Of a DNA stretch of 64,000 bases, positions 37,151 to 45,578 are shown piece after piece. The DNA comes from Acidobacteriota bacterium (lineage in GTDB: Bacteria; Actinomycetota; Acidimicrobiia; Acidimicrobiales; RAAP-2): positions 1 through 64,000 of the forward strand of contig JAGXAY010000003.1 in assembly GCA_018971385.1 (NCBI GenBank), given 5' to 3'. How positions within the stretch are numbered: position 1 is the stretch's first letter; the number at the start of each line of letters is the position of its first letter. A program made the position numbers and the translations under genes. The notes under the pieces are model-generated. The model saw nothing but the letters and a program-made list of their open reading frames with translations, was not told the DNA's origin and did not search any database.

Positions 37151-38773
37151 CTAGCGTCGCGTGGACAACGCGACCGGAGTGTGATCGAGCGCTTCGCGAG
37201 CGTGGTAGCTCGAGCGCGTCAGGGGAGAGGACTGCACGTGGGACAGTCCCACCGAGCGACCGTACTCGGCGAGTCGATCGAACTCCGCCGGCTCCCAGTA
37301 GCGCGACACTGGAATGTGGCGGGCGCTGGGGCGCAAATACTGCCCGATGGTGGCGATCTGGACCCCGACGGCCGCGAGGTCGCTCAAGGTCACCTGGACC
37401 TCGTCTTCGGTCTCACCCAAACCCACCATCAAGCCCGACTTGGTCACCAGACCGGCCGCGGCACCCCGGGCGAGAACGGTGAGACTCCGGTGGTAGGCCG
37501 CGGAGGGCCGCACGGCGTGTTGGAGGCGAGCCACCGTCTCAATGTTGTGGTTGAGTACGTCGGGACGCGCGTCAATAATCAGCTGAAGGTCCCGGGGAGA
37601 ACCTTTCAGGTCCGAAATGAGAACTTCCACCGCGGTCTCCGGCGACACTTCGCGAATAGCCCGAATCGTGTCGGCGATTGCTCCCGCTCCCCCGTCATCG
37701 AGATCGTCGCGCGCGACGCACGTCACGACCGCGTGGCGTAGCCCGAGCCGTACGACGGCTTCGGCCACTCGTGCGGGTTCCGTCGGATCGAGCGGGAGAG
37801 GTTTTCTCGTGTCAATGAGGCAGAACCCGCAGTTACGAGTGCACCGCTCACCGTTCACCATGAACGTCGCCGTACCGTCTCGCCAACACTCGAAGATGTT
37901 GGGGCACCCCGCCTCTTCGCATACCGTCACCAAGCGAAGGTCCTCCGTGAGAGTACGGAGACTCTGATACTCCGACCCCATGTGGGCTTCGATGCGGAGC
38001 CACTCGGGCTTTCTCGTCGCGAGGGGGAGCGCCGTCTCGAGATCAACGCCCGCCTTACGGAGACGACGAATGAGGGGCCGCTCCTCGCTCACTTCCGCGC
38101 GAGCACGCTCCACGCGAGCGACGCGCTCTGAGCCACCCAAGTGAGCCACCAGAGCCCGTCCGAGACGCTCCTCGACGACCTCGTCGCTGACGTCGAGGCC
38201 GAGCGACTGGAGCGATCCCACCGGCTTATCGGGGATCCCGCAGGGCACGATAAGCCGAAACGCGTCGAGATCGACACTCACGTTGAGGGCCACTCCGTGA
38301 AGAGTGCGACGACGACCGTCCTCCGTGCGGATGGTGCGCGCCCCCACGGCGGCGATCTTGTGGGGCCGTGAGTCGAGCCGAGCCCACACTCCCGGATACC
38401 CGTCGAGGCGACCCACGAGACCAAGGACACCCTCGGCGTCGAGGTCTCGTACCGCCTCAATCACGGCGTCTTCCATTCGTCCGACGTGCTCACGCCCCGC
38501 TCCCGGGTGGTCGGCAACGGTCACGACGGGCCACGCAACCACTTGGCCGGGGCCGTGAAAGGTGATGTCGCCCCCCCGATCGGTTTGCACCACTTCCGCG
38601 TTGAGCAGCGCCGGAGCGACGAGGAAATGTTCCTCCTTCGCTCGGACCCCCTTGGTGTACACGGGCCAGTGCTGAAACAACAACACGTAGTCCCGGGGTC
38701 CCCGCGCGAGAGCGCGCTGCAGGTCGTCCGCCTCCCCAAAACTGATCCGGCCGAGGTGGCGTCGCTCAATCAC
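37151..38773 (-). CDS. LipB-LipA fusion: octanoyltransferase (N-term) + lipoyl synthase (C-term)
   Basis: LipB: TDRGGDITFHGPGQVVAWPV, HKIAAVGARTIR, VPCGIPDKPVGSL; LipA: CEEAGCPNIFECW, CTRNCGFC, LKGSPRDL, HNIETVARL, MVGLGETEDEV, RSSYHA; one 540-aa frame. Confidence 0.93.
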   Translation of the reverse strand: MIERRHLGRISFGEADDLQRALARGPRDYVLLFQHWPVYTKGVRAKEEHFLVAPALLNAEVVQTDRGGDITFHGPGQVVAWPVVTVADHPGAGREHVGRMEDAVIEAVRDLDAEGVLGLVGRLDGYPGVWARLDSRPHKIAAVGARTIRTEDGRRRTLHGVALNVSVDLDAFRLIVPCGIPDKPVGSLQSLGLDVSDEVVEERLGRALVAHLGGSERVARVERARAEVSEERPLIRRLRKAGVDLETALPLATRKPEWLRIEAHMGSEYQSLRTLTEDLRLVTVCEEAGCPNIFECWRDGTATFMVNGERCTRNCGFCLIDTRKPLPLDPTEPARVAEAVVRLGLRHAVVTCVARDDLDDGGAGAIADTIRAIREVSPETAVEVLISDLKGSPRDLQLIIDARPDVLNHNIETVARLQHAVRPSAAYHRSLTVLARGAAAGLVTKSGLMVGLGETEDEVQVTLSDLAAVGVQIATIGQYLRPSARHIPVSRYWEPAEFDRLAEYGRSVGLSHVQSSPLTRSSYHAREALDHTPVALSTRR

Positions 38774-39915
38774 CGCGACCCCTTCAGACCCTGGCCCACT
38801 CGTTCGAGGAACTGCGCTGCGATCAGGGGATCACAGACCCGGTGATCAAAGGAGAGTCCGAGCGTCACGACGTCACGAGGAACGACCGCACCCGACTCGT
38901 CGAACGCCGGGACAACGCGCGGAGTTCCCACGCTCAGTGCGGCGACTTGGGGAGCGATGATGAGGGGTGTCACCACCACCGTGTGGGGGCTCGGCGAACT
39001 CATGAGAGTAAAAGTTCCTCCGAGAAGATCGTCTGCTCCCAATTGGCGCGCTTCGCGAAGTGTGTCCAACTCGCGGAGCCGGCGTTCAATGGCGTCAACC
39101 TCCAGATGGGTCGCCGCGTGCACGACGGGAATCACCATTCCTTCGGGTGACCCGTGCCGTACGACACCGATGTTGAGACTGCGCTGAACGGTGAGGGTGT
39201 CACCCATCCAGGTGGCGTTCAACTCTTCAAACTCCTCGAGGGCGTCGACGAGGGCGCGCACCACGGCAGCTTCACCGGACACCGGGAGACCGTCGAGGTC
39301 GCGAGGTTGACGCCGAAGCGCTCCGAGAAGTCCGGCATCGACCTCCACCGAGACGAATCCGTGGGGGATAGAAAAAGCCGACAGCATCATGTGCTGCCCC
39401 ATGCGCCGACGCTGCGAACTGAGGCTCACCACGACTTCTTCAGTCGGACCGAGGGCCACCGCACGCTCGGCGTCGCGACGCGTGATCTGACCACCGGGCC
39501 CAGTCCCCACCACCGTCGAGGCTTCGACCCGTCCGTCGCTCAGAATGCGCCGTACGACTGGCGACACGACAATTCCCGCTGAGCCCGACGGAGCAGACGT
39601 CGTGGGAGTTGATCGAGGGCCGGCGCTCGCCGTGGCCGTCGGGGTCGGAGTAGTCGGGGCGACCACGCTTCCCGGTTCGGCATTTTCGTCGATGACCGCG
39701 ACACGAGCTCCCGTTTCCACGGTGTCCCCGTCGCCGGCCAGAATCTGGACCAGCACACCCGCCGCGGGCGAGGGCATCTCCGAGTCGACCTTGTCCGTCG
39801 ACACCTCGAAGAGTGGCTCATCCCGATTGACGTACTCCCCCACCTTCTTGAACCATCTCGTGATGATTCCCTCGGTGACCGACTCACCGAGCGACGGAAG
39901 CGTGACCTCAACCAA
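38770..39915 (-). CDS. Dihydrolipoamide acyltransferase (E2)
   Basis: Lipoyl domain EVSTDKVDSEMPSPAAGVL, peripheral-subunit-binding region (VVRRILSDGRVEASTVVGTGPGGQITRRD), catalytic domain LSFDHRVCDP. Confidence 0.92.
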   Translation of the reverse strand: MVEVTLPSLGESVTEGIITRWFKKVGEYVNRDEPLFEVSTDKVDSEMPSPAAGVLVQILAGDGDTVETGARVAVIDENAEPGSVVAPTTPTPTATASAGPRSTPTTSAPSGSAGIVVSPVVRRILSDGRVEASTVVGTGPGGQITRRDAERAVALGPTEEVVVSLSSQRRRMGQHMMLSAFSIPHGFVSVEVDAGLLGALRRQPRDLDGLPVSGEAAVVRALVDALEEFEELNATWMGDTLTVQRSLNIGVVRHGSPEGMVIPVVHAATHLEVDAIERRLRELDTLREARQLGADDLLGGTFTLMSSPSPHTVVVTPLIIAPQVAALSVGTPRVVPAFDESGAVVPRDVVTLGLSFDHRVCDPLIAAQFLERVGQGLKGSR

Positions 39916-41323
39916 CGTGGATGCCCCGACCCGCCAAGGCGAGCAGCGTCTCGCCGAAGGTCTCGGACAGCGACGGGTGCGGCTGGATGAGGGCGGCCGC
40001 CTCCTCCGCCGTCGCCTCCCAGTTGACGGCGTAGTACCCCGCGCCCAACTGCTCGGTCACCCACGGACCCGCCATGTGCACGCCGAGGATCTGACCCGCC
40101 GTTCCGTCAGGTCGCTTTTCGGCGATGACTTTGACGACCCCGTCCGTCTCGCCGATGATCTGGGCGCGACTGTTTCCTCCGAAGGGGTCCTTCTTCACCA
40201 CGACCTCGTATCCACGCTCCTTAGCGGCGGCCTCGGTGAGTCCGACGAAGGCAACTTCGGGGTTGGAGTAAATCGCCCAGGGAACCCGGTCGTAGTCCAC
40301 CGGCATGACGGGCTCACCGAGAATCGTCTTAATCGCCACTACCGCCTCAGCGAAACCGACGTGCGCGAGCTGGGGGGTTCCGGCGACGACGTCGCCGACG
40401 GCGAACACCTGAGGGTTGGCCGTACGCATGCGCGAGTCGGCGACGACGAAGCCACGCTCGTTAATCTCGACACCCGTGCCCTCGCCGAGAAGACCCTCGG
40501 TCCGCGGACGACGACCGACCGACACGACAACGACGTCGACGCTGACCGCGTCTCGACCCTCCAAGGAGATGGTGGTGCCCTTCTTCGTCGGTTGGTGACC
40601 CGTGATGGTCACGCCCGTCAGAATTTCGATGCCCCGCTTCTTAAAGGCCCGCTGCACGACACTCGCGACCTCCGTGTCGCATCCGGCGAGGATGGACGGG
40701 AGGCTCTCCAGAATCGTCACCTGCGTGCCCATGTCGGCCAACACCGACGCGAACTCACACCCGATGGCGCCCCCACCGATAACCGCCGCCGACTTCGGCA
40801 GGGTCGAGAGGTTCAAGAACTCGTCGGAGGTCATCACGATCGACCCATCTACGTCGAAGCCCGGAAGGGTCCGCGGCACCGACCCCGCCGCGAGAATCAC
40901 GTGAGTGCCCTGGGCCACGACACCGGCGTCGGCGCCGTCGAGAACGGTGACCATCTGGTCCTTATCGAGGCGCGCCGTTCCTTCGAAGAGGGTGATCTTG
41001 CGCCCCTTGATGAGACCACTCAGACCCTTGTGCAAACGGTCCACGACTTCGTTCTTGCGAGCTTGGCTGACGGCGAAGTCCACCGACACGCTCTTCGCGG
41101 TGATACCGAAGTCACTGGCGTGCTCGAGGGTGCGACGGACATGGGCGGTCTCGAGGAACTCCTTCGCGGGCACGCATCCACGGTGCAGGCAGGTCCCACC
41201 GACCTTGTCCCTTTCCACCAGGGCCACGTTCAGCCCTCCGGCCGCTCCGTAGAGCGCGGCCGCGTAACCACCGGGGCCTCCACCAATTACGACGACATCG
41301 AACTTCTGGACCTCTGGTGCCAC
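39908..41323 (-). CDS. lpdA: Dihydrolipoyl dehydrogenase
   Basis: VVIGGGPGGYAAALYGAAGG, GGTCLHRGCVPAKEFLETA, VIGGGAIGCEFASVLADMG, AVGDVVAGTPQLAHVGFAE, HPSLSETFGE. Confidence 0.97.
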   Translation of the reverse strand: MAPEVQKFDVVVIGGGPGGYAAALYGAAGGLNVALVERDKVGGTCLHRGCVPAKEFLETAHVRRTLEHASDFGITAKSVSVDFAVSQARKNEVVDRLHKGLSGLIKGRKITLFEGTARLDKDQMVTVLDGADAGVVAQGTHVILAAGSVPRTLPGFDVDGSIVMTSDEFLNLSTLPKSAAVIGGGAIGCEFASVLADMGTQVTILESLPSILAGCDTEVASVVQRAFKKRGIEILTGVTITGHQPTKKGTTISLEGRDAVSVDVVVVSVGRRPRTEGLLGEGTGVEINERGFVVADSRMRTANPQVFAVGDVVAGTPQLAHVGFAEAVVAIKTILGEPVMPVDYDRVPWAIYSNPEVAFVGLTEAAAKERGYEVVVKKDPFGGNSRAQIIGETDGVVKVIAEKRPDGTAGQILGVHMAGPWVTEQLGAGYYAVNWEATAEEAAALIQPHPSLSETFGETLLALAGRGIHVG

Positions 41324-43132: not shown

Positions 43133-43894
43133 GTGAGTACTCCGGTTCTGCAGCTCGTTGACGTCCACGCCCACGCCGAGGGCTCCGAAATCTTGCGGGG
43201 AGTCTCGCTCGAGGTTCACCCGGGCGAAGTTCACGCCCTAATGGGGCCGAATGGTGCGGGTAAGTCGACTCTCACCAACGTCATCATGGGTCACCCGGGG
43301 TACACGCTCAGTTCGGGGCAGATCTTGTTGCACGGCGAGGACATCACGGGCTGGAGTACGGACGAGCGGGCGCGGGCCGGCGTCTTTCTCGCCTTTCAGT
43401 ATCCCGAGGCCATCAGTGGCGTCTCGGTGGTGCAGTTTCTCCGCCAAGCCATCGCCGCCCGCCGGGGCTTGAGCGAGTTGAGCGTCCTCGAGGTTCGCCT
43501 CGACCTGATGGACTGGATGTCGCGACTCGGCATGGATCCGGCCTTCGCCGAACGTCACCTCAACGAAGGATTTTCCGGGGGTGAGCGTAAGCGCAACGAG
43601 ATTCTGCAAATGGCTCTCCTCACTCCCGCCATTGCGCTTCTCGACGAGACCGACTCCGGCCTCGATATCGACGCCCTGCGTGTCGTGGCCCGAGGCGTCC
43701 GAACGGTGAGAGAGCAGCACCCCGACATGGGGACCCTGCTCGTCACCCACTACGTGAAGTTGCTCGACGAGATTGTCCCCGACGTCGTCCACGTTCTCCT
43801 CGACGGACGCATCATTCACACGGGTGACGCCACGGTGGCTCGAGACATTGAAGTAGGAGGGTACGACGCTCTGCGGGCTCGGGTGAACTCGTGA
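43133..43894 (+). CDS. sufC: Fe-S cluster assembly ATPase SufC, copy 1
   Basis: GEVHALMGPNGAGKSTLTNVIMGHPGY, NEGFSGGERKRNEILQMALL, LDETDSGLDIDALRVVARGV. Confidence 0.94.
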   Translation: MSTPVLQLVDVHAHAEGSEILRGVSLEVHPGEVHALMGPNGAGKSTLTNVIMGHPGYTLSSGQILLHGEDITGWSTDERARAGVFLAFQYPEAISGVSVVQFLRQAIAARRGLSELSVLEVRLDLMDWMSRLGMDPAFAERHLNEGFSGGERKRNEILQMALLTPAIALLDETDSGLDIDALRVVARGVRTVREQHPDMGTLLVTHYVKLLDEIVPDVVHVLLDGRIIHTGDATVARDIEVGGYDALRARVNS

Positions 43895-45120
43895 GTTACG
43901 ACGTTCGCGTCCTGCGCAGTGACTTTCCCCTCCTGCGACGAGTCGTGAACGGTCATCCCCTCACCTACCTCGACTCCGGCGCTACTTCACTCACTCCGCG
44001 CACCGTTCTCGAGGCGATGGACGTCTACTACTCCCGCCACCACTCCAACGTGCACCGCGGGGTCTACCAAACGGCCGCGGAAGCCACCGAGGCCTACGAG
44101 GGGGCGCGCGCCGACGTGGCTCGCTTCATCGGAGCCGCGTCGCCCGACGAGGTGGTCTTCACGAAGAACGCGACGGAGAGCTTCAACCTCCTCGCCCGGG
44201 CGTGGGGGACGGCTCACCTCAAGGAGGGCGACGTCGTCGTCCTCTCCGAGATGGATCACCACGCCAACCTGGTTCCCTGGTTCCAACTACGCGACTCCCA
44301 CGGAATCACCCTTCGTTTCTTACGCGTCAACGACGAGTACCGACTCGACCTCAGCAATCTCGACGAGTTGCTCGACGGGGCTCGCCTCCTCAGCGTGACC
44401 GCGATGAGTAACGTCCTCGGCACCGTGACGCCGATCGCTCAGCTGGCCGAGCGCGCTCACGCCGCCGGAGCCCTGCTCGCCGTGGACGGAGCCCAGTCCG
44501 TCGCCCACCTGCCGACGAACGTCGCAACTCTCGGAGCCGATTTCCTCGCGTTCTCCGGCCACAAGATGCTCGGTCCCACCGGTATCGGAGTTCTGTGGGC
44601 GAAGAGTGAACACTGGGCCGAAACGCCCCCGTTTCTCGGGGGCGGCGGGATGATTTCCGACGTCACACTCGACGGATTCACTCCGGCCTCGGGACCGGCA
44701 CGCTACGAGGCGGGTACGCCCCCTATCGCCGAAGCGGTCGGACTCGGGGCGGCCGTGCGCTACCTCTCCTCGATCGGAATGGACGCCGTCGCCGCTCACG
44801 AGCTCGACCTCACCGCCTACGCCCTCGAACGACTCGCTCACTCCTTCGACGAACGGGTCCGCATCATCGGTCCGTCGACCACGCTGGACCGGGGTGGCGT
44901 CATCTCTCTCGACGTTGAGGGGGTCCACCCCCACGACGTCTCCCAGGTTCTGGACCAGCACGGGGTGTGCGTTCGCCCGGGGCACCACTGCGCGAAGCCC
45001 CTCATGCGCCGATTCGGTCTCGCGGCGACGGCGCGTGCGTCGTTTGGCCCCTACTCCATCCCCGCCGAGGTCGACACCCTCGTCGACGCCCTCCGAGACG
45101 CGCTGGAGATGTTCACGTGA
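43891..45120 (+). CDS. sufS: Cysteine desulfurase SufS
   Basis: YLDSGATSLTPRTVLEAMDVYY, FTKNATESFNLLA, SGHKMLGPTGIGVLWAK, RPGHHCAKPLMRRFG. Confidence 0.96.
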   Translation: MSYDVRVLRSDFPLLRRVVNGHPLTYLDSGATSLTPRTVLEAMDVYYSRHHSNVHRGVYQTAAEATEAYEGARADVARFIGAASPDEVVFTKNATESFNLLARAWGTAHLKEGDVVVLSEMDHHANLVPWFQLRDSHGITLRFLRVNDEYRLDLSNLDELLDGARLLSVTAMSNVLGTVTPIAQLAERAHAAGALLAVDGAQSVAHLPTNVATLGADFLAFSGHKMLGPTGIGVLWAKSEHWAETPPFLGGGGMISDVTLDGFTPASGPARYEAGTPPIAEAVGLGAAVRYLSSIGMDAVAAHELDLTAYALERLAHSFDERVRIIGPSTTLDRGGVISLDVEGVHPHDVSQVLDQHGVCVRPGHHCAKPLMRRFGLAATARASFGPYSIPAEVDTLVDALRDALEMFT

Positions 45121-45578
45121 CCCAGATGCCTCCCCTCAACGATCTCTACCGCGAGATCGTGATGGACCACTACCGCACTCCTCGTAATCGTGGCGAGCTA
45201 CCCACTCCCCCCGCGCAGCGTGCCGACGGCCACAATCCGTTGTGCGGAGACGAGATCTCCGTCTACGTTCTCATCAACGGGGACGTGATCGAGGACATCA
45301 AGTTGACCGGACACGGGTGCTCCATCTCCCAGGCCTCCTCGTCCATGATGAGTGCCGCCGTCAAGGGGCGAAGCCTCGAACAGACCCGGGAACTCGTCGC
45401 CCGCTTCAAAGAGCTCATGACGAGCGAGACCGCCGACTCCTCCGACCAGGCCCTGCGGGAGTTGGGGGAGATTGCCGCCCTCTCGGGAGTCTCTAAGTTT
45501 CCCGTTCGCATCAAGTGCGCGACCCTGGCCTGGAATACATTGACCCAGGCCCTGGACGACGCTCCTCAGCAGGGGTAG
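45117..45578 (+). CDS. sufU: Fe-S scaffold/sulfur-transfer protein SufU
   Basis: LYREIVMDHYRTPRNRGEL, NPLCGDEI, GHGCSISQASSSMM, IKCATLAWNTL; GTG in overlap with sufS stop. Confidence 0.95.
   Translation: MTQMPPLNDLYREIVMDHYRTPRNRGELPTPPAQRADGHNPLCGDEISVYVLINGDVIEDIKLTGHGCSISQASSSMMSAAVKGRSLEQTRELVARFKELMTSETADSSDQALRELGEIAALSGVSKFPVRIKCATLAWNTLTQALDDAPQQG

Follow-up and report, generated by a model that had tools for sequence, protein, structure and literature searches.

The window, the whole 64,000-nucleotide stretch of DNA that was analysed, carries a gene in which the octanoyltransferase LipB and the lipoyl synthase LipA are joined in a single chain. This LipB-LipA fusion is found across the class Acidimicrobiia, to which the window belongs, and the two genes are separate in every other lineage examined. 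We consider it highly probable that the gene makes one bifunctional enzyme of endogenous lipoylation, with the LipB step followed by the LipA step, and that it has a single origin from a tandem pair of genes. The enzymes are familiar and the class-wide arrangement is apparently undescribed, giving a natural single-chain version of the two-step lipoyl pathway that has been retained across a bacterial class.

The fused gene and its two domains

The initial annotation had proposed a single-chain fusion of LipB and LipA, and closer analysis bears this out. The frame has 0 internal stops and its translation runs from a LipB half into a LipA half; the product passes the cut-offs of both families, and the motifs that had been quoted, HGPGQ, HKIAAVG (containing K139), VPCG (containing C178) and RSSYHA, are all present in it. 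With NCBIfam, it scores 118.6 bits against lipB TIGR00214 (cut-off 83.55) and 339.8 bits against lipA TIGR00510 (cut-off 310.25), and the stricter LipB model NF010925 is narrowly missed at 142 versus 155. Pfam places LplA-B_cat (PF21948) at residues 24-207 with 83.2 bits against a cut-off of 27 and the Radical_SAM domain at residues 309-465. The match to LIAS_N at residues 253-290 is weak, its score of 26.7 falling just short of the cut-off of 27. The layout of the gene and of its upstream neighbors is given in Table 1.

Table 1. Positions in the window of the fused gene, its parts, and the adjacent E2 and E3 genes
Feature	Coordinates	Strand	Details or basis
Fused lipB-lipA gene	37151..38773	minus	540 aa, GTG start, stop 37151-37153
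LipB (octanoyltransferase) domain, residues 1 to about 220	38114..38773	minus	PF21948, TIGR00214, M. tuberculosis LipB 1w66
LipB catalytic dyad	K139 38357-38359; C178 38240-38242	minus	Invariant, 27 homologues
Interdomain linker, about residues 221-253	38015..38113	minus	Predicted helix 233-240
LipA (lipoyl synthase) domain, residues 254-540	37154..38014	minus	TIGR00510, M. tuberculosis LipA 5exi/5exk
CX4CX5C auxiliary-cluster motif, C285/C290/C296	37886..37921	minus	Invariant
CX3CX2C radical-SAM motif, C311/C315/C318	37820..37843	minus	Invariant
RSSYHA motif, residues 520-525; S522 is the counterpart of the auxiliary-cluster serine ligand	37199..37216	minus	Alignment and PMC13232139
E2 acyltransferase gene (one lipoyl domain, E3-binding, 2-oxoacid_dh), likely acceptor	38770..39915	minus	Pfam
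Dihydrolipoyl dehydrogenase (E3) gene, upstream in the same gene run	39908..41323	minus	TIGR01350

To judge the residues we aligned 27 fusion proteins that match end to end, with 44-73% identity to the window protein. K139, C178 and the substrate motif RGGxxTxHGPGQ at R66-Q77 are invariant in all 27, as are C285/C290/C296, C311/C315/C318 and R520/S521/S522, and both halves of the protein appear non-degenerate by this measure. The roles of the LipB Cys/Lys dyad have been described (PMC9307952), and so have those of the LipA motifs, in which the auxiliary cluster is ligated by the second Ser of RSSY (PMC13232139).

A sequence search of solved structures aligns the LipB half with M. tuberculosis LipB 1w66 (E = 3e-30) and the LipA half with M. 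tuberculosis LipA 5exi (E = 1e-92), and returns no solved chain that spans the two. The fold search again pairs LipB with 1w66 and matches LipA to 5exi/5exk at E = 3e-32. The AlphaFold model of the window protein has a mean pLDDT of 89.9 and a pTM score of 0.91, and that of an OCS155 homologue, 41% identical to it, has 87.3 and 0.87; these are two models only, built from 23-27 sequences, with the arrangement judged by pTM. Since such pTM values would be unexpected if domains of ~220 and ~290 residues had an undefined placement, the models suggest that the LipB and LipA halves likely have a preferred arrangement.

Distribution and origin of the fusion

Searches at the order, class and phylum levels return full-length matches throughout the window's class, and outside the class, among the matches listed, coverage is essentially of LipA only. 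Because the first search reads through stops, a strict test was applied in which the LipB and LipA domains have to lie in one stop-to-stop ORF. By that test 64/64 of the class loci fetched first are fused. The fused loci come to 132 in total, some of them being one genome present in two collections, and they range from the window's genus to the tiny-genome marine cells of OCS155. Named records with the fusion include Acidimicrobiaceae, Ilumatobacteraceae, Ca. Microthrix, Ferrithrix, Acidimicrobium and OCS155, which point to Acidimicrobiia as the class. A fusion limited to one genus is rejected by this presence across the class. Among the Actinomycetota inspected outside the class, the genes are separate in 38/38 (8/8 and 30/30 in two sets). 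Several of the 30 had looked fused when judged by a same-length frame, and the strict test found every one of them separate. All loci returned from other phyla (Chloroflexota, Bacillota, Acidobacteriota, Verrucomicrobiota and others) have separate genes as well.

The LipA tree, drawn with L080, L082 and L155 left out, contains one change between the fused and unfused states, with an SH-aLRT of 86. The LipB tree contains two, the extra one involving a very long SAR86 branch (L161) that falls among fused rows. In a first tree, L080, L082 and L155 had fallen within the fused clade although their LipA was scored as 'separate'. Those three are rejected as true separate LipA genes since they look like fragments: L080 and L155 are at contig starts, and the genome of L082 has a LipB fragment at the edge of another contig. 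The trees are unrooted and the direction of change rests on the outgroups, all of which are separate; read in that way, one origin in the ancestor of the Acidimicrobiia is most likely.

As to how the genes were joined, many of the unfused outgroups have lipB and lipA in tandem, in some cases in one frame and parted by only one stop codon, although in-frame cases of this kind are favored by the search method. The tandem pairs L066, L069, L151 and L153 share the gene order of the fusion, are often adjacent or overlapping and are sometimes in the same frame, but a stop codon stands between the genes and the fusion has none. Loss of the stop is the simplest route. A tandem lipB-lipA pair in the Acidimicrobiia ancestor would have lost its intervening stop once, and the fusion would have been retained thereafter.

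The class also has its exceptions and odd loci. In some members the fusion is seen only as fragments at contig edges. In genome G271, which is 85% complete, the LipB ORF ends once its domain is complete, and LipA is found neither after it nor elsewhere in the genome; loss, fission and an assembly problem are candidate explanations. The class genomes G168, G244, G247, G122, G153, G319 and G341, which are 91-96% complete, have no LipB or LipA match, and G168 belongs to the window's own genus. Hence, the fusion system is not universal in the class. Genome G239 has the fusion and, at locus L093, a separate lipB/lipA pair, which groups in the trees with unfused sequences from other lineages, suggesting that the pair was acquired by transfer. 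Fusion frames are interrupted at L138, by a stop in LipB, and at L156 (Ca. Microthrix UBA881), by a frameshift, both of which are probably assembly errors or pseudogenes.

Assemblies titled 'Bifidobacterium breve' (L125, L136 and L139) bear an Acidimicrobiia-type fusion. Because L125 and L139 are placed among the Acidimicrobiia in both the LipA and the LipB trees, these record names are probably wrong.

Proposed function and alternative readings

In the known pathway, LipB moves octanoate from acyl carrier protein to a lipoyl-domain lysine by way of an acyl-Cys, and LipA then inserts sulfur (PMC9307952, PMC13232139). By family knowledge, the fusion very likely transfers the octanoyl group to a lipoyl domain and then inserts sulfur at that same domain. 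C178 of the LipB domain, with K139 assisting, would accept octanoate from acyl carrier protein and would pass the octanoyl group to a lipoyl-domain lysine; the foremost acceptor would be the E2 whose gene lies immediately upstream. Sulfur insertion would follow at the LipA domain, which would draw on SAM and a pair of [4Fe-4S] clusters to add two sulfur atoms to the octanoyl chain. As for the benefit, we infer that two enzymes working one after the other on one carrier domain would, by being fused, always be present in equal number and at the same place.

The gene order in the window is E3, E2, the fusion, a sugar-epimerase-like gene and then a convergent metH, and the ORF coordinates agree with a 4-nt overlap between the E2 and fusion genes that had been remarked on initially. 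An E2 or E3 gene is found upstream on the same strand in 111/111 of the fused loci whose available upstream sequence reaches 700 nt or more. The whole genome, a 96%-complete assembly, contains one PF21948 (LplA/LipB-type) domain, the fusion's own, and the same domain search detects no lipoate ligase. Since no other domain of this type was detected, the fusion is probably the genome's sole means of lipoylation; the acceptors encoded there include the E2 and a GcvH. Hassan and Cronan, in 2011, reportedly found that LipA and LipB of E. coli co-purify with 2-oxoacid dehydrogenases, as if assembly took place 'on site', and a fusion gene adjacent to E2 would fit that picture.

The initial annotation went a step further and suggested direct hand-over, that is, a processive enzyme that keeps hold of the lipoyl domain as it moves from the LipB site to that of LipA. 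In favor of this, the two domains act successively on one carrier, the genes for E2 and the fusion overlap in a conserved E2/E3 neighborhood, and two-domain models of high confidence point to a fixed geometry. On the other hand, separate LipA and LipB are enough in most bacteria, and co-expression with fixed stoichiometry accounts for the same facts. The linker, measured between fixed reference points in the 132 fused loci, is poorly conserved and varies from 5 to 88 residues with a median of 40, which argues against a finely tuned relay. LipA is also probably rate-limiting regardless, because every turnover uses up its auxiliary cluster (PMC13232139). We hold the putative hand-over to be possible and, on balance, unlikely. 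A rigid 'lipoyl assembly' enzyme in the Acidimicrobiia, with the domain visiting both sites and processive lipoylation coupled to translation of E2, is a speculation that we regard as rather doubtful.

A bifunctional enzyme working as one chain, which is our preferred reading, has also to be weighed against the making of two proteins from the continuous frame, through proteolysis or through translation that starts inside the linker, in which case the fusion would be catalytically meaningless. In-frame start codons do lie near the linker in 127/132 loci, but GTG is common in high-GC DNA, and a Shine-Dalgarno core precedes such a codon in only 13/132, at varying positions. No conserved internal start for a free LipA was found among the 132 fused loci, and the high pTM suggests that the LipB and LipA domains pack together in the predicted structure. 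The production of two proteins seems to us quite improbable. A sequencing or assembly error that joined two genes, a danger raised in the initial annotation and one to which a fragmented genome of 221 contigs might be open, is rejected with near certainty because the same continuous frame and junction recur in >100 loci from other assemblies, including single-contig genomes (L054, L058) and an OCS155 record (L149) not labelled as a metagenome bin.

Relation to known lipoylation systems

The separate LipB and LipA of E. coli and M. tuberculosis belong to the same families as the halves of the fusion and have the same catalytic dyad, cluster motifs and RSSY motif, but they are two proteins where the Acidimicrobiia have one chain. 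The nearest curated architecture is NF053790, the bifunctional lipoate--protein ligase/lipoyl synthase, in which LipA is likewise preceded, on the same chain, by an attachment enzyme. Its N-terminal half, however, is the ATP-dependent ligase LplA and that of the window protein is LipB. The window protein scores 352.7 bits against this model, whose cut-off is 800, and only the LipA half aligns.

The initial annotation had allowed that the fusion might prove to be one of many already known. Identical loci are indeed many, but none is described in the literature searched (on lipoylation, and on Acidimicrobiia with lipoyl synthase), where an earlier mention is possible, and no NCBIfam model for a LipB-LipA architecture appeared. 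Ligase-domain fusions are mentioned in a large study of how lipoate assembly evolved, which has no match for 'Acidimicrob' (PMC10332631). Proteins of the LipB-LipA kind may already carry a multifunctional label in automatic databases.

The fusion is a ready construct for probing whether octanoyl transfer and sulfur insertion are coupled, which is hard with separate enzymes, and a possible tool for the heterologous production of lipoylated proteins. It may also be useful as a genomic marker of the Acidimicrobiia, and an annotation that names one half of it would make a genome seem to lack LipB.

LipA depends on a supply of Fe-S clusters. At 43133-45578, on the opposite strand and within ~5 kb of the fusion, candidate genes recognized by sequence resemblance would encode an ATPase like SufC, a cysteine desulfurase like SufS and a scaffold like SufU/IscU.
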